From contig CANQMW010000007.1 of the NCBI GenBank assembly GCA_947625045.1, positions 1 to 64,000 on the forward strand: a DNA stretch of 64,000 nt. Reading direction: 5' to 3'. This stretch comes from an uncultured Oscillospiraceae bacterium. Lineage in GTDB: Bacteria; Bacillota; Clostridia; Oscillospirales; Oscillospiraceae. Each line of letters opens with the position of its first letter. Position 1 is the first letter of the stretch. The notes below the pieces were generated by a model. The model was not told the DNA's origin and did not search any database. It was given only the letters and a program-made list of their open reading frames with translations. The position numbers and the translations under genes were made by a program. Below, piece after piece: positions 3,271 to 46,861 of the stretch.

Positions 3271-3647
3271 GGCGCCCTCCATAGTAAGGTATTTCTTCGA
3301 CATTATGGAGGCAGCTTTGCTCTTTGTCCAGCAGGATCCAGAATAATGCCAAGCATCATCAGTGATGCACTGATCAGCATCCAGCAGCCGCACCGCAACC
3401 CATCGCCTCCTCGGCAAGGGGCTGTTAGACATACACTGACCGGATGCGGTCAAGGCATCCAGGAGTGTATCATCAACCTGGAGGATACCCCACGTTGTAT
3501 TTATGAGACGCAGGCGGAAAAGCTGGTGCCCAGCCTCCTCTGACGAATGATTATAATGCCCATACTCACATCTTTTCTGATAACAAGTAGGTATGGGTAT
3601 TCATCCTATAGACTTGACTGGCAGTCAAGAATGTGACTCCCAGTTTA
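3271..3647. other. intergenic region, nothing recognised except a small dyad
   Basis: No gene is supported here. The ORFs listed in this stretch have no good ribosome site or recognisable product. A short palindrome, CTTGACT-ggc-AGTCAAG, lies at 3613-3629 just upstream of a promoter and could be an operator for the next gene. Confidence 0.5.
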
Positions 3648-6817: not shown

Positions 6818-6846
6818 TTTACATTTAAAGGATTTTGTGGTATACT
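6818..6846 (+). promoter_or_regulatory. sigma-A promoter of the ATPase gene
   Basis: TTTACA, 17 bp, TATACT. The predicted start point is only about 16 bp before the TTG start codon, leaving just room for the GGAGGTG ribosome site. Confidence 0.7.
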
Positions 6847-6869
6847 ATCTTCAGATGGAGGTGATCGTT

Positions 6870-8081
6870 TTGGTTTACAGACCTATGTATGTAGATAGGA
6901 TCATGGCCTATGTGGACACGCCCTTTGTGAAGGTGTTGACAGGTGTTCGTCGCTGTGGGAAGTCCACTATATTGAAAATGATTATGGAAAAACTACGGGT
7001 GGAAGGAAATATCCCTGACGACCGGATCATAAGCCGCCGTTATGATTCGATGGAATATGCGGATATGACTGCAAAACAGATGTACGCTGAACTGAAACAA
7101 CTCCTATCCCCCACCGACAGAACGTATTTGTTTCTTGATGAGGTGCAGGAGATCAAGGGCTGGGAAAGGGTCGTCAATTCACTTGCCTCAAATCATAATG
7201 TGGATCTATATGTGACAGGCTCCAACTCCCGCATGATGTCCTCAGAGATATCCACATACCTGACAGGAAGATATGTCACTTTTCGCATCTACACGCTCTC
7301 ATTTGCTGAGTACCTGAAGTTCAAGGAAGTATACAGCTCTGTTGCGGACCCAAGGACAGAACTGGCGGAATATGTTCGCTTGGGCGGATTCCCAGCAACG
7401 CATCTGCGGAAGTATTCTCAGGATGAAATATATACCATCGTGCGGGATATATACAATTCTACCATTTTTGCTGACATTGTGCGGCGCAATCAGGTAAGAA
7501 AGATCGACCAGCTGGAGCGGGTCGTCAAATTCACGTTCAACAATGTAGGCAATACTTTTTCCGCGAAGTCTATCTCGGATTATTTAAAATCAGAGAACCG
7601 GAAGATCGACAATGAAACCGTGTATAGCTATCTGGAAAAGCTGGAGAAAGCGTATTTGCTTCACCGCTGCTCCAGATATGACATACAAGGCAAGGAACTG
7701 CTAAAAACGCAGGAGAAATTTTATCTTGCGGATACATCCTTGAGATACAGTGTTTTAGGCTATAATGCCGATACAGTCGCTGCGAGTCTTGAGAACATTG
7801 TCTACTTGGAACTCTGTCGCAGAGGTTACACTGTCCATATTGGGAAAACCAATGATGGAGAAATAGATTTCATAGGCACAAGGCAGAATGAAAAGCTCTA
7901 TGCTCAGGTCACCCAGGAGGTCCGTTCCGAGAAAGCTGAAAAACGTGAATATCATCGTCTGCTTGAAATACATGACAACTATCCCAAATATGTATTAAGA
8001 GCGGATGAGTTTGCAGGAGGAAACTACGAAGGCATAAAAACGATGCATATAGCCGATTTCCTTCTCAGTTCGGAGTACTAA
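6870..8081 (+). CDS. AAA-type ATPase with DUF4143-like C-terminus
   Basis: A predicted cytoplasmic ATPase of the widespread bacterial/archaeal AAA_14-DUF4143 family, whose role is generally unknown. Walker A is GVRRCGKST and Walker B is YLFLDEVQE. A sensor-like TGSNSRM follows. The C-terminal half contains a winged-helix-like region (FSAKSISDYLKS) and the closing DGEIDFI segment, which resembles a nuclease-type D-ExK strand (DGEIDFIGTRQNEKLYAQV). I start it at TTG 6870, because GGAGGTG lies 6 bp upstream and the promoter excludes the ORF-track start. About 403 aa, full length for the family. It is transcribed alone. Confidence 0.8.
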   Translation: MVYRPMYVDRIMAYVDTPFVKVLTGVRRCGKSTILKMIMEKLRVEGNIPDDRIISRRYDSMEYADMTAKQMYAELKQLLSPTDRTYLFLDEVQEIKGWERVVNSLASNHNVDLYVTGSNSRMMSSEISTYLTGRYVTFRIYTLSFAEYLKFKEVYSSVADPRTELAEYVRLGGFPATHLRKYSQDEIYTIVRDIYNSTIFADIVRRNQVRKIDQLERVVKFTFNNVGNTFSAKSISDYLKSENRKIDNETVYSYLEKLEKAYLLHRCSRYDIQGKELLKTQEKFYLADTSLRYSVLGYNADTVAASLENIVYLELCRRGYTVHIGKTNDGEIDFIGTRQNEKLYAQVTQEVRSEKAEKREYHRLLEIHDNYPKYVLRADEFAGGNYEGIKTMHIADFLLSSEY

Positions 8082-11842: not shown

Positions 11843-12154
11843 TTATCCCGCCGAGACCTCTCTCGCCTGCTTCACCATCAGCTCTACCATTTCAAGGATG
11901 CGGTGCTGTTTCTCACTGGAGACTCCATCAAGGAGCCGGGATAGCTGTGATGCCTTAAACTCTGTCCCATGCTCCACAACGTCACAGAACAGCGCGTCCG
12001 CAGAGACCTCCAAGCCGTGGATGATCGCTATCAGCTTGTCATAGCGCGGGAATGCCGTACCCCGCTCAACCGTGGAGATGTAATTCGGTGTGAGACCAAT
12101 CCTCACTGCGAACTGCTCCTGCGTCAGGCATAGCTGTTCACTGCATGCCTTCAC
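11843..12154 (-). CDS. XRE-type regulator, 5'-truncated
   Basis: HTH protein (LTQEQFAVRIGLTPNYISTVERG) with a C-terminal helical tail. The reading frame is open upstream of the GTG start (SGKRVKACSEQL) back to the TGA that ends the methyltransferase gene, so the original start codon appears to have been lost at the cassette junction near 12163. If it is still made, it starts at GTG 12154 without the usual first helix and without a clear ribosome site. It may be non-functional. Confidence 0.6.
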   Translation of the reverse strand: MKACSEQLCLTQEQFAVRIGLTPNYISTVERGTAFPRYDKLIAIIHGLEVSADALFCDVVEHGTEFKASQLSRLLDGVSSEKQHRILEMVELMVKQAREVSAG

Positions 12155-12166: not shown

Positions 12167-12883
12167 TCATTTTTTGATGCATCGGATACAGAAAGACAAA
12201 GGTGACAAAAAAACTCTTCTGATTCTGAACAAATAATCTTGTGCAACTCCTTCAACAAAAAAACCATGTTCCTCTAATATAGACGCAACTTCTTCACATT
12301 TTCGATATATAGGCTTGACGCCATTAAAATGTGCATCCCAGAATATATTTGGTGACGGATCAATGATAATAAGCTCGCTTCCGGTATACAAAGAGTTCAA
12401 CACATCAATGAATAATCCATCTTCAATATAACATAAAGAGTTGCACATAAATATAATATCATTTGAACCAGATAAGTATTTATATGCATTAGCAATATCA
12501 TCATTCTTCAGAATTCCGCAGTCATCTATATTTCGATTGCGTATCGAGAAATCGATTCCAGTATACCTGCTAATTGATAGTCTACGCTGTCTTAACCAAT
12601 AATATAGGCTACCATTACCACTCCCCAAATCCAGAATAGAAACATTGTGCCACGATTTAAAATCTACCAACAACTCAATTTTAGAATAATAGCCATTTGT
12701 AGAACCATCAAACAATAAATCATCCTGCTTTTCATAATAATTAGATATAAAAAATTTTCTAATTCCATCTTTTTTCGGAATGAAAAAAGGTAATGTTATA
12801 AAAGAAACGGCTGATACATATAATTGCCTCATATATTTTTTAAATCCAGGAATCCATTCTGCCACTACTTTATATATCATCAT
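12167..12883 (-). CDS. class I SAM-dependent methyltransferase
   Basis: A Rossmann methyltransferase, 238 aa. Motif I ILDLGSGNGSLYYW lies near residue 82, with an acidic GID turn and FMCNSLCYIED as the later motif. The N-terminal ~30 residues contain a hydrophobic stretch (LYVSAVSFITLPFFI), suggesting membrane association. It overlaps the upstream amidohydrolase gene by 14 bp and has AAGGAATG before the ATG. The substrate is unknown. As last gene of the AT-rich cassette it presumably methylates a cassette product. Confidence 0.75.
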   Translation of the reverse strand: MMIYKVVAEWIPGFKKYMRQLYVSAVSFITLPFFIPKKDGIRKFFISNYYEKQDDLLFDGSTNGYYSKIELLVDFKSWHNVSILDLGSGNGSLYYWLRQRRLSISRYTGIDFSIRNRNIDDCGILKNDDIANAYKYLSGSNDIIFMCNSLCYIEDGLFIDVLNSLYTGSELIIIDPSPNIFWDAHFNGVKPIYRKCEEVASILEEHGFFVEGVAQDYLFRIRRVFLSPLSFCIRCIKK

Positions 12884-14441
12884 TCACATTCCTTTGCATC
12901 CAATACATAGGATATCCTGTTATAAAATCATTCTTATCGAGCATTCTTTTAGGCTTTTTATTCTTAAGGTTAACCATTCCTATAAATCTGGTTAGCGAAG
13001 ACTTTTTAGAATAATATGAAAGCACATCATACATTAATCTCTGAGCAACACCATTGCGCCGATATTGCTCTAGAACGTATATATTCTCTAGATGAACTTT
13101 GTTGGTTGCTTTATGGTAATGTGTTAAACAAAATCCGATGAGCGTTTTCTCAAAGAATGCTCCGATACAATAATCCTCCTCAACAGAAAACCACTCTTCA
13201 AGCTCACTGTCACTCCAACAATCACAAATCGCGCCGCAGTCAAACGAATAATGATGCAAATAAAGCGAAACAGAACTCACATCACATTCTGCTAGACGAT
13301 GAAGCGTTACATGATTGGCAATCTTATTATCTACTCTTTCCCCGGAAATCCATACTTCTTCTGGGTATCCAAGCAAATCGAGATTTGTGAGTGGATTGTC
13401 CTTGTAGCATGAAAAATCTGCATAATAGCCCTGAGCAATTCTCCCCAGCTTATCGCCTAACATTAGGGCCTGTGGTGTTGTAATTAGGTCTGAAAACAAT
13501 ATCCGTTCAATAGATATTCCAAAATCTGAATTTAATAGCTTTATCTCTCTTATTAACGAATCACAGGGTGTGCCACTAAAGCCCGAATCAGTACCTAAGG
13601 CCACCATAAGATTATTTTCAAATAATTTAGGAATTACTTTTTTCTCCCCAACAATCCAACTTTTGAGTACTTCTCCATTAATATCGCTAAATGTTTTGCA
13701 ATTATCAAGCGTGCTGTCGACCGATGCAACATAAGTTGGTATAATAATTACGTTCCGCTTTTTAATCATCTGCAATAATGAATCGCTATAGTCTCCAGCA
13801 TGCTCCAAAGTGTCTGTACCTGCTAGAACCGCTTCAAACGCTGCCTTCTCTGTGTAGGCATGACAGGAAACCAACAGATCATTACTGTGCGCGAATTCTA
13901 TCATACTCTCCAACAGGTCAAATGAAAAGGCATTGTCACCATGCAGAATTTTACAAAAGTGTATATCACTACTAATTAATTTGCTTATCGCATTTTTGAA
14001 TTGTAAAATATCCGTAACCACAACAGCGCCACGATCATGACAATGTCCCCCTGGGCAGGTAAAAAAACAACCAGAAGTATAAATCCTCGGTAGGTAGTTC
14101 TTATTAAGCCTGTTCACAATACCTATCGGCTTAAAGGAGAAACCTCCCATATCTTTTAAAGTGGTAATCCCGCATTTGCATGCATCTAAAGCATTTTTGA
14201 GAGCAATTTCGTGTAATGTACTCGTTAGCTCTTCATCGTACGGGTTCTCAAGAATATGGCAATGTGCATCAATTAGCCCTGGCAATATGTAACGAGAATA
14301 CTTCTTTTCTTCAACACAATCTGTAAAATCAACATCAACAATTGTGCCATCAGAAATAGTAAGGCAATTAAGCTGCAGCCATTTTGCACTTATAGCGTCA
14401 TAGAAGCAAGTATTATTCGGCTTATAAATATAATCACTCAA
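12870..14441 (-). CDS. amidohydrolase-GNAT acetyltransferase fusion
   Basis: A 523-residue two-domain enzyme. Residues 1-375 form a metal-dependent amidohydrolase of the imidazolonepropionase/prolidase-like branch: LIDAHCHI (HxH) near 57, SCHAYTEKA and LEHAGD as later His ligands, and GTDSGFSG with the Asp. Residues ~380-520 form a GNAT domain, with IYVLEQYRRNGVAQRLM as the acetyl-CoA loop. The start is TTG with GAGGTG 5 bp upstream. I know of no common fusion of this kind. The likely sense is hydrolysis of an amide or lactam coupled to acylation of the freed amine. Confidence 0.75.
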   Translation of the reverse strand: MSDYIYKPNNTCFYDAISAKWLQLNCLTISDGTIVDVDFTDCVEEKKYSRYILPGLIDAHCHILENPYDEELTSTLHEIALKNALDACKCGITTLKDMGGFSFKPIGIVNRLNKNYLPRIYTSGCFFTCPGGHCHDRGAVVVTDILQFKNAISKLISSDIHFCKILHGDNAFSFDLLESMIEFAHSNDLLVSCHAYTEKAAFEAVLAGTDTLEHAGDYSDSLLQMIKKRNVIIIPTYVASVDSTLDNCKTFSDINGEVLKSWIVGEKKVIPKLFENNLMVALGTDSGFSGTPCDSLIREIKLLNSDFGISIERILFSDLITTPQALMLGDKLGRIAQGYYADFSCYKDNPLTNLDLLGYPEEVWISGERVDNKIANHVTLHRLAECDVSSVSLYLHHYSFDCGAICDCWSDSELEEWFSVEEDYCIGAFFEKTLIGFCLTHYHKATNKVHLENIYVLEQYRRNGVAQRLMYDVLSYYSKKSSLTRFIGMVNLKNKKPKRMLDKNDFITGYPMYWMQRNVNDDI

Positions 14442-14453
14442 TATATCACCTCT

Positions 14454-15011
14454 TCAGTTTTTCGCAGAGCTATAATCTTTTGATTGTCTAAAGTTCTTTA
14501 TATAAAAATCATAATACCAAACAGTAAGCACAGCAATCCACATTATCATCCCAACATACTGAAGATAGATTATAAAAGAATTTGACATAACCTTCTGAAG
14601 AATAAATACAATCAAACTATATACAATTGAAGAAATATTGCACACTTGATACTTATGCAATGTAGCTTTTAACTTTGCATCCTGACTTTCCAAAAGTATA
14701 TTCCAGAGAAAATAGAAAATAAAGATTAAAGAACTAAATAAAAAGAAGTGTTCGTATGAACCGTCAGCAAGTTCTAGCAACGTTAGAAAATATAGCGCCA
14801 GGCAAAATGCATCAATCAGTAAGTATAAATCACCATAAGAAATACTGTCATCCTCTGAAGCTGTCCATCCATTCAACGCTGCTATAAATTCTATAACTGC
14901 AAATAGACGAATTATCATACTGCTACTTCTATAGAAAACAACCACTGCAAAGCCCATGAGAGCAACAATAGCAAATTTAAACGCAACCGGATATCGTCTT
15001 TCAGTGTCCAA
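14454..15011 (-). CDS. hypothetical multi-span membrane protein
   Basis: 185 residues with about five hydrophobic segments (FAIVALMGFAVVVFY, MIIRLFAVIEFIAAL, LYLLIDAFCLALYFLTL, FFLFSSLIFIFYFLW, VGMIMWIAVLTVWY). The start is TTG behind AGGAAGTGAT, just past the radical SAM stop. I recognise no family. It could be a transporter or anchor for the cassette. Confidence 0.6.
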   Translation of the reverse strand: MDTERRYPVAFKFAIVALMGFAVVVFYRSSSMIIRLFAVIEFIAALNGWTASEDDSISYGDLYLLIDAFCLALYFLTLLELADGSYEHFFLFSSLIFIFYFLWNILLESQDAKLKATLHKYQVCNISSIVYSLIVFILQKVMSNSFIIYLQYVGMIMWIAVLTVWYYDFYIKNFRQSKDYSSAKN

Positions 15012-15015
15012 GCGA

Positions 15016-15918
15016 TCACTTCCTATCTAAATGATACATCTCAAAGTACTCATCCATCTCCGCCCAAGCATCACAACAGCTACAGAGTGCTATTTCTCTG
15101 TATCGCTCTGCCATATGCAAATCTCTCAATCTTGATATTTGCTCACCGTTCCAAATATCAAATAAAGATTCTTCATTGCTATCACCCAGAAAAAGCCTGT
15201 TTTCATAGTCAAAGCAACATGCAGATACTATGCCGTTCCAATGAATTGTCATCTTATTCCACAAATCTGCACATGGAACTCTAGGCCTACCTAACACTGG
15301 ACTAAGATTATTACTAGCTAAATTTAGGCTTGGCATTTGGTTAGCCCATGTATATAAGCAAGAAATCTCCAAATCGCAGTCATATTTAGCCCATTTCTTC
15401 ATGAAACAATCTCGCTCTGCGTTATTTACATACATATCAATAAATTGCAGAACTACATGAACTCGATCATTATTACTAAGCAAATATTCTAAATTATCAT
15501 TTAGCTGATCCAAATCACCCCCGCATCTAATCAAATCATAAACTGTATTTGAATCACATGCATCGACTGAAACTATCAACTCATCCAAACCAACCTCATT
15601 CAACCTATGAACGGCATAGTCCGTTAATAGACTTCCATTTGTCGAGACAATGACTTTCGACTTTGTCCTTTCCTTACACCAGCGTATAAGAGTATATATC
15701 TCTGGATTCAAAAATGGTTCTCCCATCCAATACAATTGTACAACTTCAGCACTATCACTAATTTGATTCAAAATCGAATCATAGAGTTTCATTGACATAC
15801 ATCCAACGGGTTTATCTTGTGAAGCAATTGAATTCGGACAAATACTGCAATGGAAGTTACATTTATTCGTTGGCTCAATAACATAATATTTGGGGAGGGG
15901 GTAACGACTTTTCATCAT
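15016..15918 (-). CDS. radical SAM enzyme with SPASM domain
   Basis: A 300-residue radical SAM protein. The cluster motif CNFHCSIC lies near residues 18-25, followed by YWMGEPFLNP and the TNGSLL strand. The C-terminal ~80 residues form a SPASM-type Cys-rich domain (VPCADLW, SACCFDYENR, LCSCCDAW) that should hold an auxiliary 4Fe-4S cluster. The family includes peptide-modifying, epimerising and dehydrogenating enzymes. No precursor-peptide gene is evident nearby, so a small-molecule or sugar substrate is as likely. It directly abuts the GNAT gene upstream. Confidence 0.85.
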   Translation of the reverse strand: MMKSRYPLPKYYVIEPTNKCNFHCSICPNSIASQDKPVGCMSMKLYDSILNQISDSAEVVQLYWMGEPFLNPEIYTLIRWCKERTKSKVIVSTNGSLLTDYAVHRLNEVGLDELIVSVDACDSNTVYDLIRCGGDLDQLNDNLEYLLSNNDRVHVVLQFIDMYVNNAERDCFMKKWAKYDCDLEISCLYTWANQMPSLNLASNNLSPVLGRPRVPCADLWNKMTIHWNGIVSACCFDYENRLFLGDSNEESLFDIWNGEQISRLRDLHMAERYREIALCSCCDAWAEMDEYFEMYHLDRK

Positions 15919-16692
15919 CTACTCCATGCAATATACACTGCCAGAAAATGCAGTTTCAAATCCAAGTTCACGATACCATTTCTCTACCGTGCTTCCAGCC
16001 TCTGTCTGCAAAAATAACACTTCTCCTAATCTTCTACTCCATTCATATATACATGCATTAGTAACAGCAGTTCCGTATCCATGGCTTCTGCTATCAGACA
16101 AAGTCCCCACATTATATATACCGCCTTTTCCTTCTTCAATACAAAGTGTCGCAACTGACAAAGGAATGTTATTGCAATAGCAGATATAATGAATGAATTT
16201 CTCACTATTCGAAAAAGAACGAGTAAGCGCATCTATATATGTTTTATCAAGCTCACCATACGGCTGCTCTGGAGTTCTTTCACCACAATAAGCACTCATA
16301 AACACTCTAATAAAATCCTGTATTGTCTTATCATCACGCACTTGCCTAATAACCAGATCTTTTGCTTCCTGTCGTTGCTGTTTTGATTTATATACCATGA
16401 ACGATTCTTCAGACATCTTCACAAATCCATTATGTTTTAGGTATTCAATTGTATCCATCTGTTCCTTTTCATTAACTATATAAACTGACGGTGTTCTTCC
16501 TGAACTTAGAAAAGTACGCTTAATGCTTGGTAGTACATCTGTAAGATGTGTATTTTCTCTTAGAATTGCATAATTCCAAAAGCCATCGGTAATTATATCA
16601 CTCAAATAAGCAGTCCAATCCTCATAGTCTAAACAATGGTCAAAAAACATCCCTTCTTGTACCTTGTAATGCCATTTTAATAAATCATTCAT
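15919..16692 (-). CDS. GNAT-family N-acetyltransferase
   Basis: 257 residues. The GNAT fold is in the C-terminal half: IYNVGTLSDSRSHGYGTAVTNACI forms the acetyl-CoA-binding strand and loop, and YRELGFE is the usual terminal motif. The N-terminal half may be a degenerate second GNAT unit. AAGGAGGAT precedes the ATG. Being the first enzyme in the cassette and abutting the radical SAM gene, it probably acylates the same pathway intermediate. Confidence 0.75.
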   Translation of the reverse strand: MNDLLKWHYKVQEGMFFDHCLDYEDWTAYLSDIITDGFWNYAILRENTHLTDVLPSIKRTFLSSGRTPSVYIVNEKEQMDTIEYLKHNGFVKMSEESFMVYKSKQQRQEAKDLVIRQVRDDKTIQDFIRVFMSAYCGERTPEQPYGELDKTYIDALTRSFSNSEKFIHYICYCNNIPLSVATLCIEEGKGGIYNVGTLSDSRSHGYGTAVTNACIYEWSRRLGEVLFLQTEAGSTVEKWYRELGFETAFSGSVYCME

Positions 16693-16705
16693 AATACTAT
16701 CCTCC

Positions 16706-17299
16706 TTATTGCTTTATTAATGTTATAATAACTGAAACCATTGCTCCAATAATACTTATATATAACCCAGTCCAAAACTCTTTCCTTTTATTGTTTCTTA
16801 TGTGCCTTTCAACTTCACCACACCTTTGATATAACAATTCCAAATCTTCTTGGGCTCGAGTAATGTTATTCACCTTTAACGATTCGGATATTCTTTTGAA
16901 AATTTCTGCGCTTAAGTTTGAAACTTTAATATACGTATTTTTCCTTTTAATAGCGTCAATCAAGATATCTATCTTAAATAGTATGTTTTTCCTCTGTTCT
17001 TTTTGAATTTCTATTGCACGAAGCTTTGTCAGATCATTAAGCATCTCATTATAATTTATCTCTCCATCCATATAGTATAGTGGTTCGAAACTTTCAAGTA
17101 AATCTATAATTCTCTTTGTGCAATCAGGCTCACTATTCTCAACATTTGAGCTGAATAATAATTTTATAATTTTCTTCTTCCTTTTAAACACAAAAAATTT
17201 TTTGCTATGATTTGCCAGCAGATAGTAAAGATACCCTAATATGAACATAGCAGGGAATGAGTACTGGAAAACCTTTTTTAACATGTCTATTAACACCAT
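16706..17299 (-). CDS. membrane-anchored helical protein, unknown
   Basis: 197 residues. A hydrophobic segment lies near the N-terminus (FPAMFILGYLYYLL) and another at the C-terminus (LYISIIGAMVSVIITLI). Between them is a long charged helical region rich in Lys and Glu, likely a coiled coil on the cytoplasmic side. I do not recognise the family. Both ends in the membrane with a helical middle resemble sensor or signalling anchors. It is the first gene of the AT-rich cassette. Confidence 0.55.
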   Translation of the reverse strand: MVLIDMLKKVFQYSFPAMFILGYLYYLLANHSKKFFVFKRKKKIIKLLFSSNVENSEPDCTKRIIDLLESFEPLYYMDGEINYNEMLNDLTKLRAIEIQKEQRKNILFKIDILIDAIKRKNTYIKVSNLSAEIFKRISESLKVNNITRAQEDLELLYQRCGEVERHIRNNKRKEFWTGLYISIIGAMVSVIITLIKQ

Positions 17300-17371
17300 G
17301 CTTTCTCAATTTAACAAGCCGTCAATGACAACCACTTCCATCTTTTTGTATAACTAATCTTACCTCTTGTA

Positions 17372-17473
17372 TTACTTCGTCATACAAGTAAACATCTGGG
17401 GACAAATCATGAGGTTGTCATAGACGGGCAGGTACTGCTTCGACATGCCCTTGGTGATGGGTTGTATTCTCAT
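17372..17473 (-). pseudogene. rfbA 5' stub
   Basis: A 33-codon frame containing ITKGMSKQYLPVYDN, which matches the N-terminal substrate loop of glucose-1-phosphate thymidylyltransferase (compare [12 protein letters not shown] in the intact rfbA at 45966-46841). The sequence diverges after LPVYD. It marks a recombination junction at the end of the polysaccharide locus. Confidence 0.65.
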
Positions 17474-17519
17474 TCCATATCTCCTGGCCAAGATGACACT
17501 TCACATGTTCTTTACCTTT

Positions 17520-19391
17520 CTACAGTTCCTGTGCCGCCCTATCCAGCGCCACAGCGATGGTTTCATCCATGTCGTAATACTGATATTCCCCCAGCCGGCC
17601 GCCGAAAATCACATCCGGCCGCTCCTTCGCCAGGTCAAGATACTGCTCGTACAGCGCCAGGTTCCGCTCGTCGCTCACAGGATAAAAAGCCTCCCGCCCG
17701 GGCACCCACTCCCGGGGATATTCCCGGGTGATCACCGTCTTCGGGCTCTTCTGCCCCGACAGATGCTTGTGCTCGACGATCCGCGTATAGAGCGGCTTTT
17801 TCTCGCAGTAGTTCACCACCGCATGGCCCTGGGAGTCCTCCTGCTCCAGCGTCTCGGTCTCGAACCGCAGGCTCCGGTATTCCAGCTGCCCCAGCTCGTA
17901 CCCGAAGAACTCGTCTATGGGCCCGGTGTATACGGTCTTCTTCGCGATGTCCGGGAAGGCGTTCACCAGCTTTTCATAGCTCATCTCCGTCGCCGCCGGG
18001 ATGCCCTCCAAAAGCTTCTCTATGAGCCCGTTGTAGCCCCCCTCCGGGATGCCCTGGTGCTCATCCTCAAAGTACCGGTCGTCCTCTGTGAACCGCAGGG
18101 GGATGCGCTTGATGACGTCCGCCGGCAGGCTTTTGCAGGGCCGGCCCCACTGTTTCTCCGTGTAGCCTTTGATAAGCGTCTTGTACAGGTCCTTCCCTAC
18201 CAGCGCCAGCGCCTGCTCTTCCAGGTCCTTCGGCTCGTGGTCCAGCCTCGGCCGCTGGGACGCAAGCTTCTTTTTGGCCTCCTCCGGCGTCTTCACGCCC
18301 CACAGCTGCTCAAAGGTCTTCATATTGAAGGGCAGGGAATACTCCTTCTCCCCGCTCACCGCCATCACCCGGTGGGTATAGGGCCGGAAAGCGGTGAAGC
18401 GGTTCACATACTCCCACACCGCCTCGTTGTCCGTGTGGAAGATATGGGCGCCGTACTTGTGGACGGTAATGCCCTCTATGTCCTCGCAGGCCACGTTCCC
18501 GCCCAACTGGGGCCGTTTGTCGATGACGATGCATCTCTTGCCCTTGTCCGCCATCTCCCGGGCAAACACACTGCCGTAGAGGCCGCTGCCCACGATAAGG
18601 TAGTCGTACTTCTCGTTGAGCGCCGCCCATATGGCCCTGGCCTGGTCCAGCGTGACAGCCTTGTCCAGATACTGCTGATAAAGCCCGCATATTACCGCCG
18701 TGTCCCCATAGGCGATCTGCTCCCCATGCTCCAGCCACAGCACCTTCGTGCACAGCTCCTGCACCTGCGCAAGGGAATGGGACACCAATATCGTCGCCGC
18801 GCCCCGGGCGATGATCTCCCGCATCTTGGCTTCGCTCTTTTTTCGGAAAGCGCCGTCGCCGACCGACAGCACCTCGTCCAAGATGAGGATATCCGGCTGG
18901 ACCATGCTGGCGATGGAGAACGCCAGCCGGCTCTTCATGCCGCTGGAAAGCTGTTTGAAAGGCCTGTCCTGGAAATCATGCAGCTCAGCGAATTCGATGA
19001 TCTCGTCGTAGGTCTCATCCATAAACTTCCGGGTGTAGCCCAGCATAGCACCCCGGAGGTAGGCGTTTTCTTTTACCGTCAGCTCTCCGTCAAAGCCAGA
19101 GGCCAGTTCCAGCAGCGCCGCCACGTTCCCCCGCCTCTTCACCCGGCCTTCCGTGGGCTCCATGATGCCCGACACCGCCTTCAGAAGCGTGGATTTGCCC
19201 GCGCCGTTGCTGCCGATGATCCCCAGCATCTCCCCCTCATCCAGGGTGAAGGAGACGTCCTTGTCCGCCCAGAACTCGTTCACATGATAGTTGCGGGTCA
19301 GACGCCGCATCACATACTCTTTGAGCCCTATCTCCTTAAAGTCTCCCGTCATATACCGGATGGAGACGTTTTTCACTTCCAATACGCTCAT
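17520..19391 (-). CDS. polysaccharide-export ABC ATPase fused to UDP-galactopyranose mutase
   Basis: A 623-residue natural fusion. Residues 1-250 form a TagH/Wzt-type ABC ATPase (Walker A GSNGAGKST, signature LSSGMKSRL, Walker B ILILDEVLSVGD, H-loop LVSHS). Residues ~260-620 form a complete UDP-galactopyranose mutase: the FAD Rossmann motif IVGSGLYGSVFA, then GGNVACEDIEG, YGAHIFHTDN and the C-terminal GRLGEYQYYDMD. The mutase makes UDP-galactofuranose, so the polymer probably contains Galf. The fusion would place Galf synthesis at the exporter. The permease gene is 11 bp upstream in the same operon. The frame is continuous, with no stop between the halves. Confidence 0.9.
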   Translation of the reverse strand: MSVLEVKNVSIRYMTGDFKEIGLKEYVMRRLTRNYHVNEFWADKDVSFTLDEGEMLGIIGSNGAGKSTLLKAVSGIMEPTEGRVKRRGNVAALLELASGFDGELTVKENAYLRGAMLGYTRKFMDETYDEIIEFAELHDFQDRPFKQLSSGMKSRLAFSIASMVQPDILILDEVLSVGDGAFRKKSEAKMREIIARGAATILVSHSLAQVQELCTKVLWLEHGEQIAYGDTAVICGLYQQYLDKAVTLDQARAIWAALNEKYDYLIVGSGLYGSVFAREMADKGKRCIVIDKRPQLGGNVACEDIEGITVHKYGAHIFHTDNEAVWEYVNRFTAFRPYTHRVMAVSGEKEYSLPFNMKTFEQLWGVKTPEEAKKKLASQRPRLDHEPKDLEEQALALVGKDLYKTLIKGYTEKQWGRPCKSLPADVIKRIPLRFTEDDRYFEDEHQGIPEGGYNGLIEKLLEGIPAATEMSYEKLVNAFPDIAKKTVYTGPIDEFFGYELGQLEYRSLRFETETLEQEDSQGHAVVNYCEKKPLYTRIVEHKHLSGQKSPKTVITREYPREWVPGREAFYPVSDERNLALYEQYLDLAKERPDVIFGGRLGEYQYYDMDETIAVALDRAAQEL

Positions 19392-19401: not shown

Positions 19402-20169
19402 TCATACGTAGTACAGGAACCGGGTATTGTACTTCTTGTACATCACGCACCCGACCCCCAGCGCGATCGCCACATCCGCCGCCATCAGCAGGTGGAACCA
19501 TACCGAGGGAATGGTCGCCTCTATCACGATCTTACGGAAATAGCGGATGAACAGATACACCGGGTTCAAGAGAAATAGCTTCCGGGCCGTCTCCCCATAG
19601 CTGTCGATCTGATAGAAAATGGCCGACATGTACATCAGAAGCCGTACGAATACATCATAGAGATACTGGATATCCCGGAAAAAGATGTACATCGCCGAGA
19701 GGATCATCCCCACGCCGATGTTGAACAGGATGAGCATGCAGATGGGATATACGAGACACAGAAATTTCCAGGTGAACGCCAGGTGGTCGAATGCCACGAA
19801 GATAAAGAAGATCACCAGCGTCAGCAGAAAGCTGATGAAGGTCTGGACGTTCTTGGAAAGCAGGAACAGGTACTTGGGCACCGTCACCTTGGAGAATATC
19901 TTAGCGTTATCCATGAGCGCCCGCATGCCGGACTTGGTGGACTCGGAGTAGTAGTTGAACACCAGGTTGCCGCAGAAGAGATAGATGGTGTAATGGGGCG
20001 TGTTCCGGCCGAAGAAGTGGGTGAACACCAGCTTCATCACAAGCAGCATCAGCAGCGGAGACAAGAGGCTCCATCCCATCCCCAGCACCGTCCGCTTATA
20101 TTTCTTTTTAAAGTCCCGTTTCACCAGCTCCTCAAAGAGAAACCGGTGCTGGAGCAGCTTTCGGAACAT
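19402..20169 (-). CDS. ABC-2 type polysaccharide export permease (TagG/Wzm-like)
   Basis: 255 residues with about six membrane segments and the ABC-2 export family pattern: FKKKYKRTVLGMGWSLLSPLLMLLVM near the start, and LNPVYLFIRYFRKIV late. It pairs with the ABC-mutase fusion next door to export a lipid-linked polymer. The longer ORF would overlap the LDH-like gene. The ATG at 20169, with GGAG 9 bp upstream, is more plausible. Confidence 0.88.
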   Translation of the reverse strand: MFRKLLQHRFLFEELVKRDFKKKYKRTVLGMGWSLLSPLLMLLVMKLVFTHFFGRNTPHYTIYLFCGNLVFNYYSESTKSGMRALMDNAKIFSKVTVPKYLFLLSKNVQTFISFLLTLVIFFIFVAFDHLAFTWKFLCLVYPICMLILFNIGVGMILSAMYIFFRDIQYLYDVFVRLLMYMSAIFYQIDSYGETARKLFLLNPVYLFIRYFRKIVIEATIPSVWFHLLMAADVAIALGVGCVMYKKYNTRFLYYV

Positions 20170-20215
20170 GGGTCTTATCTCCACATATAAGTCTCTTGAG
20201 ACACAGTAAACAGAA

Positions 20216-21175
20216 CTATCGATCAAGCGTGTTTAGGATCGTTCTGACGTTTTCCACGGCGTCAAAAAAGCCCCTATATTCCTCCGGCGCCCAGCGCTCC
20301 CGTATGCGCTGCTGCACACCGCCGGGGCCGATGACCGAGGGGACCGACAGCGCCACGTCCCGCACCCCATGCTCTCCCATCAGCGGGGAACTTACGCACG
20401 CGATCGTGGGGCGCTGGTTGAGGATGGCGTCGGCAAGCTGGCAGACACATGTGGCGATGCCGTAGTGGGTCCTTCCCTTGGCACGGATGATCTCGGTGCC
20501 CATTCCCTTTGTCTTTCCCGCAAGCTCAGCACGGACCGCCTCGTCCCATGGGATGTCCGCCTCTCTGCAGTAGTCATCAACAGGGATGCCGCCCACCGTC
20601 ACCCGGCTCCACACCGGTACCTGGCCCTCGCCGTGTTCTCCCACCAGGTACCCCTGGACCACGCCGGTGCTCAGCCCCACATAGTCGGCGATGAAGCGGA
20701 CGAACCGGGAACTGTCCAAGATGCAGCCCGTGCCGAACACACGCCCGTTAGGAAGCCCCATCCACTGGCTCACCTTATACGTCAGGATGTCCACCGGGTT
20801 GGTGATCACCAGGACGGCCCCGCGGGTATAGTATTCTTGAATGTACCCTGTGACCTCCCGCAGGATGCGCACATTCTCCTCCGCCAGGTCCGCCCGTGTC
20901 TCGCCGGGCGCCCGGTTGCGGCCGGCCGCGATGACAATGAGATCACAGTCCGCGCAGTCGGAATAATCGCCGGCGTACAGGTCGGCGGTCCCCAGCATAG
21001 GGATGCCGTGGCGGATGTCCCACGCCTCGCCCTCCGCCTTGCTCCTGCTGCGGTCGATCAGCACGATTTCCCTGGCGATATCCCGCAGAGACAGCGCATA
21101 GGCCACCGTAGCGCCCACATAGCCCGCCCCGATGATAGCCACTTTTCGATTGCCCTGCGTGTAAGCCTTGGTCAA
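20216..21175 (-). CDS. LDH/MDH-family dehydrogenase with malate-type specificity residue
   Basis: A 319-residue NAD-dependent 2-hydroxyacid dehydrogenase of the lactate/malate family. It shows the GAGYVGATVA Rossmann motif, the substrate Arg in PGETRADL, ITNPVDILTY, and the catalytic His in GEHGEGQVPVWS. In lactate dehydrogenases residue 102 is Gln (NQKPGETR). Here it is Arg (NRAPGETR), the change known to switch Bacillus LDH to malate use. Its place between the export permease and LuxC suggests it serves substituent synthesis rather than fermentation. The physiological substrate is unknown: malate or oxaloacetate, or another dicarboxylic or bulky 2-ketoacid. Confidence 0.85.
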   Translation of the reverse strand: MTKAYTQGNRKVAIIGAGYVGATVAYALSLRDIAREIVLIDRSRSKAEGEAWDIRHGIPMLGTADLYAGDYSDCADCDLIVIAAGRNRAPGETRADLAEENVRILREVTGYIQEYYTRGAVLVITNPVDILTYKVSQWMGLPNGRVFGTGCILDSSRFVRFIADYVGLSTGVVQGYLVGEHGEGQVPVWSRVTVGGIPVDDYCREADIPWDEAVRAELAGKTKGMGTEIIRAKGRTHYGIATCVCQLADAILNQRPTIACVSSPLMGEHGVRDVALSVPSVIGPGGVQQRIRERWAPEEYRGFFDAVENVRTILNTLDR

Positions 21176-21212: not shown

Positions 21213-22427
21213 TTATCCTACCGCCACCGTCCTTGTCAGCCGGCTCACCAGGTCGTACCCGTCCCAGATGAGGTCAAAGTCCATAGTCTTGCCGATGGGC
21301 ACGATGCGGTCTATCCCCCGGACGCCAGCCGCCAGCAGGGGACGGAGCATATCCTTGTCCCCCAGATAGGAGATGGTCTGACAGCGGTTATCGTCGCACA
21401 GCGGCGCCAGTTCCAAAATGTCGTTGCAGTCATACTCAAAGAAGTACCCGGAGTTGTCCTTCAGGTCCATGATGCCGCCGTCCAGGGCCGGCACATGGAC
21501 CCGCACCAGCAGATTGTCCTCATGGGGCTCCACCCGGATGCCCTCCCGACTCACCGCAGCCAGATACCCACTCGTCAGCTTATTGACGCCCTGGATGGAC
21601 TGGAACGTATACTTTTTGCGGACCAAGTCATGGAGCCGCCGCCAGAATTCCGACTTGGCCTCTTCCCTTTTGCCGCCTGTCCAAATGACCATCCGGGGGC
21701 TTGTGCAGGCATTCTGGTCGGTGAGATAAGTATCGTTATAAAAGTCCTGTGCGATGTGGTCCTTGTCCTCCCGGGCCAAGTAACCGTCGGCGTCGATCAC
21801 CGCCAGAGAGAACCGGTCGGCAAAGGTGACCTCGCTGCCTCTGGGCGGCAGGGGCGATTTGCGCACCTCCGCGATAGTGGCGTCGCCGCCCCATATAACG
21901 CGGGTATCGGCCATGGCGGAGAAGGCGTCATTGACGGCCTTGTCCCGGCCGTACCGCACCAGGCAGACCCGCCTTTTCATCTCCCCATACTCCGGCATAT
22001 CCAGCACGCTTTGGAGCGCCCGGTCGATTATGCCCACCTGGGGAAAATCCTTGCTGGGCACACGCACGATGTTGGCGTTGCCGGTCAGGAGCCCCGCCGT
22101 CAGGGAATAGGCATAGTTCACCGGCACATTGGAAGGGGCGATATGAAAGGCCACACCCCGGCCCAGGCGGACGTGCCCCTCCTCCCGGCAAAACCGCTCC
22201 TTCAGCTTTTTCGTGGAGGCGCCGCGTATCCAGAAGGCAAAGGTGACCACATCGGGATAGGCCTTCGCCTCCCGGTCCGCCAAAAGCACCTTCGCCGCCG
22301 CGTTCAGAAAGTCCAGGATACGCCCGTCAAAGGGCGGCAGCGCCGGCACGGCCGGCATGGCGGCGGCGATATCCGCGCTGCCTACCAGGTATGTGACGCC
22401 GGTCAGATCATGCAAATCTTGCCGCAT
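21213..22427 (-). CDS. LuxC-like acyl reductase, copy 1
   Basis: LuxC-family (PF05893) fatty-acyl/acyl-CoA reductase, about 404 aa, which reduces an enzyme-bound acyl thioester to an aldehyde with NADPH. The catalytic Cys lies in DQNACTSPR, and HIAPSNVPVNYAYSL plus GNANIVRVPSK form the nucleotide site. I use the ATG at 22427, since GGGGGTG is well spaced there. The ORF-track GTG is too close. It overlaps the partner LuxE gene by 20 bp. There are no luciferase genes, so the aldehyde is for biosynthesis. A second LuxE-LuxC pair lies at 26667-28935. Confidence 0.87.
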   Translation of the reverse strand: MRQDLHDLTGVTYLVGSADIAAAMPAVPALPPFDGRILDFLNAAAKVLLADREAKAYPDVVTFAFWIRGASTKKLKERFCREEGHVRLGRGVAFHIAPSNVPVNYAYSLTAGLLTGNANIVRVPSKDFPQVGIIDRALQSVLDMPEYGEMKRRVCLVRYGRDKAVNDAFSAMADTRVIWGGDATIAEVRKSPLPPRGSEVTFADRFSLAVIDADGYLAREDKDHIAQDFYNDTYLTDQNACTSPRMVIWTGGKREEAKSEFWRRLHDLVRKKYTFQSIQGVNKLTSGYLAAVSREGIRVEPHEDNLLVRVHVPALDGGIMDLKDNSGYFFEYDCNDILELAPLCDDNRCQTISYLGDKDMLRPLLAAGVRGIDRIVPIGKTMDFDLIWDGYDLVSRLTRTVAVG

Positions 22428-23499
22428 AGGTATCACTGCACCCCCGTATCTCCGCGTTTTTCAGCCGCCCGTTGATCTTGAAATACTTTCCCTTCCGCCC
22501 GCAGGGGCAGTCGTCCTCCCCCAGCAGCACACCCTCGTCCTCGGTCAGGAGAGAGTGGCCCGGATAGGACTCCGGGATGGTGGACACCACCTGGATGATG
22601 CCCGGCTCCCCCACTCCGCATACGCCGAAGTCAAGCGACCGGCGCATGATAACATCAGAGAAGACGCTGGCGTGGAGATGGCCGCACTCGCACTGCATAT
22701 AGATGCAGCCGGTCTGCTCCACCATGCCGTAGTAGTCGTGTATCCGGTCCAGGCCGCATACATCCCGCAGCCGGTCGTGAAACTCCTGAGGGCTCACCGC
22801 TTCGCTGGCCAGCTTTTTCCATCCGCCGCCGTGGATGAGGATGCCGCGGGAGAGGTCGAAGGTGACGCCCTGCTCCTTCAGCCGCACCAGCTCTTTATAA
22901 AAGTGCTGCCAGACCATAAAGGTGAAGCCGAAGAGAAGGACATCCTGCCCCTGAAACTTCTCCAGAAACGCCCGCAGGCCGTCCACGTCCAGGCGCATAT
23001 CGTCGTCCAGGGCGTATATCTTCCGGGCCCCGAAGATGGAAAAGCCCAGAATGCCGGCGCCCCGGGCGGAGAACATGTTCCGGTCCTTCACCACCGACGG
23101 GCAGTCCAGAATGATCATGGGCAGCCGGGAGGCGCCCAGAAAGTCCGAGACGATCTTCACCATGGTCTTCTGCTGGTTGGCGGAGGTAGTCCTGTCCAGG
23201 TATATCCTGGACACGGCCTGCCCCGTGGTGCCGGAGGACGTCATGGTCTTCACCACATCCTCCTGCGGCACGCTCCTGAGGCTCAGCTCCTTGAAAAGCC
23301 GCACCGGCAGAAACGGCAGGTCCTCATAGCCGGAGATGCTCCCGCTGTCATAGCCAACGCTGTCCAGCATCCGGCGGTATTCCGGGCAGTGAGCCAGGTG
23401 ATGCTCCGTCAGCCCAAGGAGCCTCTCCGTCAGAAGGGCATGTTTCTCCTCATGCCCCAGCGAATAGGGCGGTATCTGCAAAAGCTCCTCAAATGTCAT
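22408..23499 (-). CDS. LuxE-like acyl-protein synthetase, copy 1
   Basis: LuxE-family (PF04443) ligase, 363 aa, expected to activate a carboxylic acid with ATP and pass the acyl group to LuxC. The ATP-site motif is TSSGTTGQ near 88-95. YGMVEQTGCIY and CPCGRKGKY are later family blocks. The C-terminal Cys (EIRGCSDTYA) is placed like the acyl-accepting Cys of Vibrio LuxE. It overlaps LuxC downstream and the thioesterase gene upstream (11 bp), so the three are translationally linked. Confidence 0.87.
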   Translation of the reverse strand: MTFEELLQIPPYSLGHEEKHALLTERLLGLTEHHLAHCPEYRRMLDSVGYDSGSISGYEDLPFLPVRLFKELSLRSVPQEDVVKTMTSSGTTGQAVSRIYLDRTTSANQQKTMVKIVSDFLGASRLPMIILDCPSVVKDRNMFSARGAGILGFSIFGARKIYALDDDMRLDVDGLRAFLEKFQGQDVLLFGFTFMVWQHFYKELVRLKEQGVTFDLSRGILIHGGGWKKLASEAVSPQEFHDRLRDVCGLDRIHDYYGMVEQTGCIYMQCECGHLHASVFSDVIMRRSLDFGVCGVGEPGIIQVVSTIPESYPGHSLLTEDEGVLLGEDDCPCGRKGKYFKINGRLKNAEIRGCSDTYAARFA

Positions 23500-24190
23500 G
23501 CTCTCTCAGCCTCTCATTGATCACATCTGCCACTTCCTGTTCGTGCTCCCGCAGGAAGAAGTGGCCGCCGTCATATTCCAGAATGTCACAGCTGCCAGTA
23601 AAGACCCGCCGCCATTTTTCCATATCTCTCCGGGGGATATCCGACGGTGAAAAGAACACCGTGGCCGGGATGCGTGTTTCATAGACCAGCCGCCCGAAAT
23701 CATAGCTTGTTATCAACTCATAATCCGCCCGGTAGACAGGCAGATAGACGCGCCAGAAGGTGGGGCTGTTGATGAGCTTTTCGGGAAGTCCTCCGAAGCG
23801 GACGGTCCACCGCTTGATTGTTTCATTTTCATCCGGTCCCTCAGCGCTGACCCGTTCTCCCAAAAAGCACGGCCCATGGGATGCCAGGAACACATGGACC
23901 GGCAGCGGCATCTCTCCCCTGGCCTGGATCATTTTCGTTACCTCGGCGGCCGCCAGGGCGCCCAGGCTGTAGCCGAATAAAGCGTAGGGTCCCTCTCCTG
24001 CCTGCGTTTTGATCTGGCCGTACATATCCGCCGTGAGCTCGTCAAAGTCCTTATAAAACGGCTCATGCCGCCGCTCCATATGGCCGGCGTATTCCAATTT
24101 TACCGGCTCGATGTCCGGCCGCAGATAGGGCGCAAGCCCATTGAAAAAGGACCCGCTCCCGCCGACAAATGGAAAGCAGAAAAGCCGCAT
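23489..24190 (-). CDS. type II thioesterase
   Basis: A 233-residue alpha/beta hydrolase of the type II thioesterase (GrsT/RifR) family, normally used to clear wrongly loaded carrier proteins in NRPS/PKS systems. It shows the FPFVGGSGSFF oxyanion region, the nucleophile elbow GYSLGA and the catalytic His in GGHFFLREH. Its presence between LuxE and a ligase/carrier-protein pair shows that acyl groups are handled on a carrier protein here. Confidence 0.85.
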   Translation of the reverse strand: MRLFCFPFVGGSGSFFNGLAPYLRPDIEPVKLEYAGHMERRHEPFYKDFDELTADMYGQIKTQAGEGPYALFGYSLGALAAAEVTKMIQARGEMPLPVHVFLASHGPCFLGERVSAEGPDENETIKRWTVRFGGLPEKLINSPTFWRVYLPVYRADYELITSYDFGRLVYETRIPATVFFSPSDIPRRDMEKWRRVFTGSCDILEYDGGHFFLREHEQEVADVINERLREHDI

Positions 24191-24203
24191 AAGCTCCTAC
24201 CCC

Positions 24204-25616
24204 TTACTCGTAATACTTTGCCAGGTCCTTGTAGAGCGTCTTGCCCGCATCATTCTTCGGTATCTCGTCGATGACGATGACCTTAAACGCCGCCTGGTTG
24301 AGCCCCGTCTTGACCACGATGAAGTCCTTCACCTCATCCGCCAGGGAGCCGTCCGTCACGAACAGGTACAGGTGATCGTCCACGCCGGCGCTGGCGCAGT
24401 CAAGGCCCTCAAAATGACCCTTGATGAGCCTGTCCACCTCATCCAGATTGACCCGGTTGCCGTATATCTTCAAAAACCGCTTTTTCCGGCCAACGATATA
24501 GTAATACCCGTCCTCGTCGAACTGGGCCATGTCCCCCGTCTCCAGCACGCCGTGGCGCTCGTCGCCCTTGATGAGATCCTCGCCGCTTTCCGCATAGCCC
24601 AATGTCACATTGGGTCCCTCATAGACCAGCTCCCCGGTCACATGGGGCTCGGTAACAGTCCCGCCGTCGGCGTCCACCAAACGGAACGTGCCGCCGGGGA
24701 TAGGGATGCCCATAGAGCCGCACCGCTCCACCGCCTTGTCCGCCGGCAGATAGCCCATGCGCGCTGTAGCCTCGCACTGGCCGTACATCACCACGAACTT
24801 TTTACCCTTTGACCCGGCGTATTCGGCGAATTTCTTGTGCAGCTCCGGCGTCAGCTTGCCCCCCGCCTGGGTCATGGTCCGCAGGCTGGGCAGGTCCATG
24901 CGGAAGAACCGCAGCCGCTCCAGCATCTCGTAGGTATAGGGCACGCCGCCGAAGGACGTGGCGCCCTGTTCCCTGAAAAACTGCCAGAACTCCCGCTGCA
25001 TGAGGCCCTTGTCCGTAACCAGCAGCGTGGCCCCCACCAGCAGGTGGCTGTTGATGATGGAAAGGCCGTAGGTATAGTTCATGGGCAGGGTCGTGATGGG
25101 CCTTTCCGTCTCGTCCAACTCCAGATACTGCACGATGGACCGGGCGTTGGCCAGGATGTTGGCGTAACTTTGCCGGACAAATTTGGGGCTCCCCGTAGAG
25201 CCGGAGGTGGTGAGCAGAAGGCCCAGTTCCGGGAACAGCGGGTACTCGGTGGGATAGCCTGTCCGAAGAAGGCTGTACCCATATACGCGGTAAACGCTCT
25301 CCATGCCGGCAAAGCCATCCGCCATTTCCGCCGGGACCCAGAGATACTTTGGCTCATAGGCCGCCAGCAGCTCCTCCAGCAAAGACCGCTCCAGATGGGC
25401 GTTCAGCAGCACCGGTACGACACCTCCGTTCAGAAAGGACACATACCCCGCCACGGAGCCGATGGTATTCGTACATAGGCAGAACACCAGACAACGCCCG
25501 CCGGCCGCGGAGACGATGCGCTCGCCCTCCGCGGCCAGTTCGCCGTATGTGACCGCCCCGCCAAACTCATCCAGTATGGCGGTGCGGTCATGGAATTTTT
25601 CCAGCTCCCAAATCAT
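24204..25616 (-). CDS. acyl-AMP ligase (ANL superfamily)
   Basis: A 470-residue AMP-forming ligase. The P-loop-like motif TTSGSTGSPKF, the YGQCEATARMGYL motif, the GDMAQFDEDGYYYIVGR block and the C-terminal Lys in KNDAGKTLYKDL are all present. It should load a carboxylic acid on the adjacent carrier protein. The two genes share one base (stop/start). The acid is unknown. The pocket residues cannot be judged by eye. Confidence 0.85.
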   Translation of the reverse strand: MIWELEKFHDRTAILDEFGGAVTYGELAAEGERIVSAAGGRCLVFCLCTNTIGSVAGYVSFLNGGVVPVLLNAHLERSLLEELLAAYEPKYLWVPAEMADGFAGMESVYRVYGYSLLRTGYPTEYPLFPELGLLLTTSGSTGSPKFVRQSYANILANARSIVQYLELDETERPITTLPMNYTYGLSIINSHLLVGATLLVTDKGLMQREFWQFFREQGATSFGGVPYTYEMLERLRFFRMDLPSLRTMTQAGGKLTPELHKKFAEYAGSKGKKFVVMYGQCEATARMGYLPADKAVERCGSMGIPIPGGTFRLVDADGGTVTEPHVTGELVYEGPNVTLGYAESGEDLIKGDERHGVLETGDMAQFDEDGYYYIVGRKKRFLKIYGNRVNLDEVDRLIKGHFEGLDCASAGVDDHLYLFVTDGSLADEVKDFIVVKTGLNQAAFKVIVIDEIPKNDAGKTLYKDLAKYYE

Positions 25617-25855
25617 CAGAACTCGATGTCGTAGTTCTTGGCGAGGATCTCCTTGCCCTTTTCAAAGGAACTGAAATCGATGATGTCATCGGTGTCCATC
25701 ATGATGTCGAAGGCATCCTCCAGGGCCGCGATGAGGCTCATGTGCCCCACGGAGTCCCAGGCAGGGATGTCCTGATATTTCAGGGTCCTGGCCGTGGCCT
25801 CATCTACGTCAAAGCTCTCCTTGAAAATGCTCAGATACTTTTCTTCGTTTGTCAT
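25616..25855 (-). CDS. acyl carrier protein, set 1
   Basis: A 79-residue carrier protein with the phosphopantetheine Ser in WDSVGHMSLI and an acidic helix II-III surface. It is encoded immediately before its probable ligase. A second, different carrier protein lies in the dlt-like set at 36521. Confidence 0.85.
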   Translation of the reverse strand: MTNEEKYLSIFKESFDVDEATARTLKYQDIPAWDSVGHMSLIAALEDAFDIMMDTDDIIDFSSFEKGKEILAKNYDIEF

Positions 25856-25923
25856 TGTTTTTTCCTCCGTTTTTGTTTTTATATACTATTATGCAGCCGC
25901 AAGATGCAGACTGTATTATCAAA

Positions 25924-26670
25924 TCAGCGAATCCCACCATCAACATGCAGGACCTGGCCGGTTATAAATGACGCCATATCCGACGCGAGAAAGACCACCG
26001 CATTTGCGATCTCTTCCGGCCGCCCAAGCCGTCCCATGATGCTCATAGAATAAGCTTTTTCCACATCCGCATCGGAAAGGCTCTTAGCCAACTGCGTGTC
26101 TGTCAAACCCGGTGCAACTGTGTTGACCCGAATACCATAATTCCCAAGCTCTAATGCCAGTCGTTTACCTGCGCCAACCAGCGCCGCCTTGCTGGAAACG
26201 TATTCCACATTTGCCCCGCCGTCGAATGCAGCGGCAGATGAAATAAAAACAATGCTCCCCGCCTTGTTACGGATCATACTTTTTGATATAAGCTGTGTCA
26301 GCAGGATGTGAGAAAAATAATTTACCTGAAATGTCTCTTTAACAGTGGCCATACCCGTCATTAGAAACGCGTTCTGATTGTAGTCCATACCCACATTATT
26401 GACCAGAACATCAATTGGGACCTTCTGCGAAAGTATCTCCTTCGCGCCGGCCTTCACGCTTTGCTCATCGGAGAAATCGGCTTGAATAACATTGACTCTC
26501 GCCCGCGCATCTGCATCCATTTCAGAAAGAAACTGTCTGAATTCATCTGTCTCATTTCTGACAACAGCAAACACTCTCGCACCCTGATCCAGGAATTCAC
26601 AAAGAATCGCTTTCCCGATTCCTCTGTTGCAGCCAGTTATAATGGCTGTCTTGTTTTCCAAGAGCTTCAT
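25924..26670 (-). CDS. SDR-family ketoreductase (FabG-like), 1 of 3
   Basis: A 248-residue short-chain dehydrogenase: TGCNRGIG cofactor loop, NNVG, catalytic Ser in FISSAAAF and YVSSK as the YxxxK pair, ending in GQVLHVDGGIR. It probably reduces a carrier- or CoA-bound ketone in substituent synthesis. Its 3' neighbour is the carrier protein of set 1. Its start overlaps the LuxC-2 stop by 4 bp. Confidence 0.85.
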   Translation of the reverse strand: MKLLENKTAIITGCNRGIGKAILCEFLDQGARVFAVVRNETDEFRQFLSEMDADARARVNVIQADFSDEQSVKAGAKEILSQKVPIDVLVNNVGMDYNQNAFLMTGMATVKETFQVNYFSHILLTQLISKSMIRNKAGSIVFISSAAAFDGGANVEYVSSKAALVGAGKRLALELGNYGIRVNTVAPGLTDTQLAKSLSDADVEKAYSMSIMGRLGRPEEIANAVVFLASDMASFITGQVLHVDGGIR

Positions 26671-44308: not shown

Positions 44309-44310
44309 CC

Positions 44311-45291: not shown

Positions 45292-45299
45292 GAATATAA

Positions 45300-45795: not shown

Positions 45796-45831
45796 CAGCC
45801 TGATTGAACTATTCTTCCTGTGTTCTTCCTA

Positions 45832-45935: not shown

Positions 45936-45965
45936 TCTTTTGGGTAAACAGCATTGCTCATAGCT

Positions 45966-46841: not shown

Positions 46842-46861
46842 ACTCTCTTCGTCTCTTTCCG

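Follow-up and report, generated by a model that had tools for sequence, protein, structure and literature searches.

BtrN, the Twitch radical SAM dehydrogenase of butirosin biosynthesis, acts on an aminocyclitol. Enzymes of the Twitch type bear one auxiliary cluster with the motif CX9-15GX4C - gap - CX2C, whereas those of the SPASM type have a seven-cysteine motif with CX2CX5CX3C-gap-C and two auxiliary clusters, and function within this radical SAM subfamily is hard to infer from sequence similarity (PMC6231123). Here, we describe a six-gene cassette that includes a radical SAM gene and lies in a 64,000-nt stretch of DNA from an uncultured Oscillospiraceae bacterium, referred to as the window. 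With a probability that we put at slightly below one half (about 0.48), it is a horizontally acquired tailoring cassette that was appended to an operon for the biosynthesis and export of a surface polymer and acts on the exported polymer.

Structure and Base Composition of the Cassette

The first-pass annotation had described six tightly packed genes at 12167-17299 that differ sharply in base composition from both sides, and both points hold. The six ORFs form an operon-like block on the minus strand and encode, in order of transcription, a membrane-anchored protein of 197 aa, a 257-aa GNAT, a 300-aa radical SAM enzyme, a 185-aa protein, a 523-aa amidohydrolase-GNAT fusion, and a 238-aa methyltransferase (table 1). 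They are separated in this order by 13, 0, 4, and 12 nt; the last two share 14 nt (12870-12883), which is the sole overlap in the cassette, and not one of several as had been stated. Base composition was determined as GC and GC3 for each gene together with a 1-kb GC profile, and GC is 0.30-0.38 and GC3 0.27-0.34 in cassette genes compared with 0.49-0.64 and 0.55-0.83, respectively, in the eight flanking genes measured. None of the six frames is interrupted, and their catalytic motifs and close spacing are kept; scans for promoters and terminators gave no excess over shuffled sequence.

Table 1. Coordinates of the Cassette Genes and of the Features That Adjoin Them
Feature	Coordinates	Strand	Basis
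Wzm-type polysaccharide ABC permease	19402..20226	minus	Pfam ABC2_membrane
Wzt-type ABC ATPase fused to UDP-galactopyranose mutase (Wzt-Glf), host operon end	17520..19391	minus	Pfam ABC_tran and GLF
rfbA (glucose-1-phosphate thymidylyltransferase) scrap, upstream junction	17377..17500	minus	match to intact RfbA
197-aa protein, first gene, no family	16706..17299	minus	ORF; hydropathy
257-aa GNAT-type acyltransferase	15919..16692	minus	FR47 above gathering score
300-aa radical SAM enzyme, predicted Twitch type	15016..15918	minus	Pfam Radical_SAM and SPASM-model match; BtrN best solved relative
185-aa polytopic membrane protein, no family	14454..15011	minus	hydropathy segments
523-aa amidohydrolase-GNAT fusion	12870..14441	minus	Pfam Amidohydro_1 and Acetyltransf_1
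238-aa class I SAM methyltransferase, last gene	12167..12883	minus	weak Pfam methyltransferase matches
XRE regulator, 5'-truncated, downstream junction	11843..12154	minus	intact same-genus relatives

This layout bears on whether the cassette could be a RiPP pathway with an overlooked precursor, to which the C-terminal auxiliary-cluster domain of the radical SAM enzyme would be suited. That reading is nearly excluded because there is no space for a precursor: the gaps of 0-13 nt offer no room inside the block, and the 220 nt upstream of it (17300-17519) are occupied by the rfbA scrap, in agreement with the earlier remark that no precursor peptide is visible. Furthermore, no RiPP-specific NCBIfam model scored above its cut-off.

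Proteins Encoded in the Cassette

In the radical SAM enzyme, the core motif CX3CX2C is formed by C20, C24, and C27, and the auxiliary cysteines are arranged as C216-X12-G229-X4-C234 and C279-X2-C282. An alignment with four relatives revealed that these seven cysteines, three in the core and four auxiliary, are invariant. Across the whole sequence no cysteine follows C282, leaving the auxiliary-II set missing, and we therefore predict that the enzyme belongs to the Twitch type with the BtrN-like motifs present. SPASM, the label originally applied, is rejected, as the seven-cysteine motif is not found and the auxiliary motif has the one-cluster Twitch form despite the match to the Pfam SPASM model. 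Among solved relatives, BtrN matches best (E 4e-16). Identity as a prokaryotic viperin was also rejected, because the enzyme scores 40.7 of the 180 bits of the NCBIfam cut-off and its match is to the generic core.

The fusion protein comprises an amidohydrolase of the Xaa-Pro-dipeptidase/arginine-carboxypeptidase type (residues 1-~375) and a GNAT domain (~405-510). The first part matches Amidohydro_1 (E 2e-22), and alignment to solved prolidase-type enzymes places the residues of the prolidase-type metal site (HxH, Lys, His, His, Asp) at H60/H62, K164, H194, H214, and D285; we predict this domain to be a prolidase-type amidohydrolase in which the metal residues are kept. Its match to the NCBIfam model XaaProDiPepCaul (E 3.5e-26) is below the cut-off (92 of 500 bits). 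The fused GNAT matches Acetyltransf_1 (E 5.6e-10; 40 bits vs. a cut-off of 20.7), and the loop R/Q-x-x-G-x-G/A is present as RRNGVA. In the separate 257-aa GNAT, FR47 is the sole model to pass (23.4 vs. 22.1 bits), Acetyltransf_7 and Acetyltransf_1 are near the gathering score, and the N-terminal half is divergent; the C-terminal motif is RSHGYGT, in which the same loop reads RSHGYG, and a single-sequence AlphaFold model is of low confidence (pLDDT 46). The methyltransferase stays below the Pfam gathering scores and matches TIGR04325 weakly, with motif I present as ILDLGSGNG. Thus, the enzyme set named in the first-pass annotation (a radical SAM enzyme, an amidohydrolase, two acyltransferases, and a methyltransferase) was recovered, with the 257-aa GNAT barely passing and the methyltransferase below threshold.

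Neither the 197-aa nor the 185-aa protein matches a family in Pfam (above cut-off), NCBIfam, PADLOC, or PHROGs. Both had been described as unrecognised membrane proteins, which fits the 185-aa protein well, as it is clearly polytopic and all-helical in a low-confidence single-sequence AlphaFold model (pLDDT 57), and the 197-aa protein less well, as its hydropathy profile has a single strong TM segment at the C-terminus (residues 174-197). Taken together, the original observation is partly confirmed: it was right in substance, with the two labels on overlaps and on SPASM corrected.

The enzymes could alternatively constitute a self-contained cassette for a small diffusible metabolite derived from an amino acid or aminocyclitol, where acylation would protect and deacylation release, with the polymer operon as a neighbor by chance. 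In line with this, the block is tightly packed and AT-rich in its own right, the nearest solved relatives of the radical SAM enzyme, BtrN and BlsE, are both from antibiotic pathways, and a GNAT together with an amidohydrolase recalls protect-and-release logic. Nonetheless, Pfam and NCBIfam searches identified neither a recognised transporter family nor a scaffold builder (NRPS, PKS, or aminotransferase) in the block, and we regard a metabolite product as quite possible but less likely than tailoring.

Junctions and the Adjacent Surface-Polymer Operon

The Wzt-Glf gene and the cassette are separated by a 220-nt junction that contains the rfbA scrap. The scrap matches the intact RfbA encoded at 45966-46841 over residues 13-42 of the latter, with 15 of 30 positions identical (E 8e-8), and its frame also reads VILARRYGMRIQPITKG against a 17-residue stretch upstream of the aligned part. 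At the other end, the truncated XRE regulator shares 77% identity with intact copies of 110 aa from two other genomes of the genus. These relatives start MIDKRFGKRVKEC, and the first residues are lost from the copy in the window; homology at the DNA level ends at 12163, and the cassette ends within 4 nt of this position. The AT-rich block thus has a broken gene at either end, the rfbA scrap on one side and the truncated XRE gene on the other. We found no recombinase inside the cassette and no convincing pair of flanking repeats at its two junctions, and an integrative mobile element, for which its own recombinase and flanking direct repeats were sought, was rejected.

Beyond Wzm, a long operon on the minus strand includes genes for an LDH-like dehydrogenase, AMP-ligases, a thioesterase, SDR-like proteins, a split transketolase, an MBOAT protein, a nucleotide-sugar epimerase, an IspD/TarI-like cytidylyltransferase, a CDP-glycerol-type transferase, LicD, and DUF4422, and two LuxC/LuxE acyl-reductase pairs are located within it at 21213-28935. 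Based on the IspD/TarI-like, Glyphos_transf, LicD, MBOAT, LuxC/LuxE, and epimerase genes, this operon is a surface-polymer locus. At its head (43745-50186), several tyrosine-recombinase-like genes, some of them short or degenerate, are interleaved with the intact rfbA gene and could be able to rearrange the locus. Two other genomes of the genus, G688 (80%) and G694 (67%), also encode the in-frame Wzt-Glf fusion, and many of its other relatives match one part only.

Distribution of the Cassette

Among 35 genomes of the genus, the amidohydrolase-GNAT fusion is present in its own genome and absent from the other 34. Searches of 295 genomes of the order and 399 of the phylum (E<=1e-20) returned four distant amidohydrolases only, which align outside the GNAT domain; the 257-aa GNAT had no relative at E<=1e-8 in the 399 phylum genomes, and the 185-aa protein had none in the 295 order genomes. 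Likewise, tblastn detected no cassette proteins in the sequence fetched around Wzt-Glf in G688 and G694. Exact-peptide scans of 84,980 species genomes, which overlook moderately diverged relatives, yielded no close relative with either the fusion or a two-sequence alignment of the radical SAM enzyme as query. Viral contigs gave no match for four cassette proteins, plasmids and phages gave distant single-enzyme matches only and never covered the fusion end to end, and no plasmid matched the cassette at the DNA level.

Within this limited sampling of the order, the phylum, plasmids, phages, and viral contigs, we found no second cassette, and relatives in unsampled species stay possible; the first-pass annotation had named a failure of the genes to co-occur elsewhere as a ground for refutation, and the data at present agree with that condition. 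The first-pass annotation knew of no described pathway with these genes, and this stands uncontradicted, as the literature on the combined gene types gave no paper, which is weak evidence of novelty. Each kind of enzyme is individually ordinary, and we rate the exact combination, which was encountered nowhere else, as new.

A singleton (1/35 in the genus and the only copy in all samples) with broken genes at both flanks and a composition unadapted to its host might also be a recently acquired insert that has no selected function there and, still intact, is in transit or in early decay. The preserved reading frames, motifs, and spacing count against this, and we consider it quite possible but less likely than either tailoring or a metabolite. 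A merely passing insert would have little import beyond showing gene gain at the ends of such loci.

Genomic Settings of Radical SAM Relatives

We inspected 11 loci that encode relatives of the radical SAM enzyme with 23-30% identity, and eight of these are surface-glycan loci, in a small sample that has no baseline from random radical SAM genes. The relative is found in a NeuB/flagellin region (L007), in two DegT loci (L009 and L010), in a nucleotide-sugar locus with an epimerase gene (L015), and with rfbC/GT41 (L051). A methyltransferase gene accompanies it in the other three, namely L008, which has a GT2 gene and in which the radical SAM gene is followed by the methyltransferase gene and one for a creatininase-type amidohydrolase; L052, which has ABC export, DegT, and WbqC genes and an adjacent methyltransferase gene; and L053, a Brachyspira plasmid with rhamnan, GDP-mannose, and amidoligase genes, also with an adjacent methyltransferase gene. 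The remaining relatives (L014, L016, and L054) are encoded outside glycan loci. No relatives of the other cassette proteins were detected by tblastn in the loci checked (L003-L016).

Defence-Like and Foreign-Looking Loci in the Window

Other parts of the window also have a defence-like or foreign appearance. A Thoeris-like convergent pair at 119-2231 encodes ThsA (SIR2+STALD; PADLOC E 8e-101) and a TIR protein (ThsB match, E 1e-10) and adjoins a tyrosine recombinase gene (2362-3453). An AAA_14/DUF4143 ATPase (6837-8081) matches the defence candidate PDC-S01 (E 5e-151), and a near copy of it is encoded in G688 close to the Wzt-Glf locus of that genome (L040). At 50561-53668, an AT-rich gene (0.377 GC) for a metallophosphoesterase with an nSTAND-like domain, which matches the defence candidate PDC-S60, makes up a second foreign-looking island near an IS110 transposase gene (54269-55516).

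A signalling or defence compound had been among the products suggested for the cassette. These neighbors, the two orphan membrane proteins, and the weak viperin-model match could be taken to point to an anti-phage or signalling system, but that match is to the generic core, and Pfam and PADLOC revealed no nuclease, NTPase, nucleotidyltransferase, or effector domain in the cassette. Since PADLOC returned generic matches only, the suggestion gains no support, and we judge such a system very improbable.

Proposed Role in Surface-Polymer Tailoring

The modified surface sugar that was likewise suggested at first gains support, as the cassette directly follows Wzm, Wzt-Glf, and the rfbA scrap and the radical SAM relatives are encoded mostly in glycan loci. 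We favor tailoring of the exported polymer because of the position and junctions of the cassette, because the upstream operon is a surface-polymer locus, because the best solved radical SAM relative uses an aminocyclitol, because 8 of the 11 loci are glycan loci, with a methyltransferase in L008, L052, and L053, and because the amidohydrolase and GNAT motifs are intact.

On our best reading, the target would be an N-acylated sugar or a sugar-linked amino acid of the polymer, and we infer the following order of steps. The Twitch radical SAM enzyme would oxidise or rearrange a C-H bond of a sugar, a cyclitol, or a sugar-borne group; the prolidase-like amidohydrolase would free an amine by stripping off an N-acyl or aminoacyl substituent; both GNATs, fused and separate, would load acyl groups onto that amine; and the methyltransferase would cap the resulting product. 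The late steps may be located at the membrane by one or both of the membrane proteins, and the product would be incorporated into, or attached to, the polymer exported by Wzm-Wzt.

Several points count against tailoring. There is no glycosyltransferase or sugar-nucleotide enzyme within the cassette, and the amidohydrolase family is known to act on peptides and amino-acid amides, not on sugars. The position behind the operon may be accidental, and without a second copy the joint travel of the gene set is unsupported. The radical SAM relatives are only 23-30% identical, in a subfamily in which sequence similarity is a poor guide to function (PMC6231123).

It is possible, although on balance doubtful, that the six genes make up an undescribed pathway in which the acyl-exchange fusion of amidohydrolase and GNAT, the other GNAT, the Twitch radical SAM enzyme, and the methyltransferase would together furnish a teichoic-acid-like exported polymer with a new decoration, namely an N-acyl-modified sugar or amino acid. 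If so, a surface polymer would be expected to carry a specific, checkable modification introduced by radical SAM chemistry and acyl exchange, in a group of bacteria in which such polymers have received little study.

Comparison with Known Systems

BtrN (PDB 4m7s/4m7t) and the cassette enzyme are of similar length, and their core and Twitch domains align, cysteines included. Their identity is low, in a comparison that covers domains and cysteines, and the neighbors of the cassette enzyme are not butirosin genes. The Twitch/SPASM radical SAM genes of O-antigen, capsule, and flagellin-glycan loci (such as L007-L010 and L051-L053) resemble the cassette in the enzyme, in the glycan setting, and often in an accompanying methyltransferase, but the enzymes are 23-30% identical to that of the cassette. 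Finally, Xaa-Pro dipeptidases/L-arginine carboxypeptidases of the Cc2672 type (3mtw, 2p9b) have the same domain and metal-binding residues as the fusion protein, whereas the cassette protein carries a C-terminal GNAT and falls below the NCBIfam equivalog cut-off.
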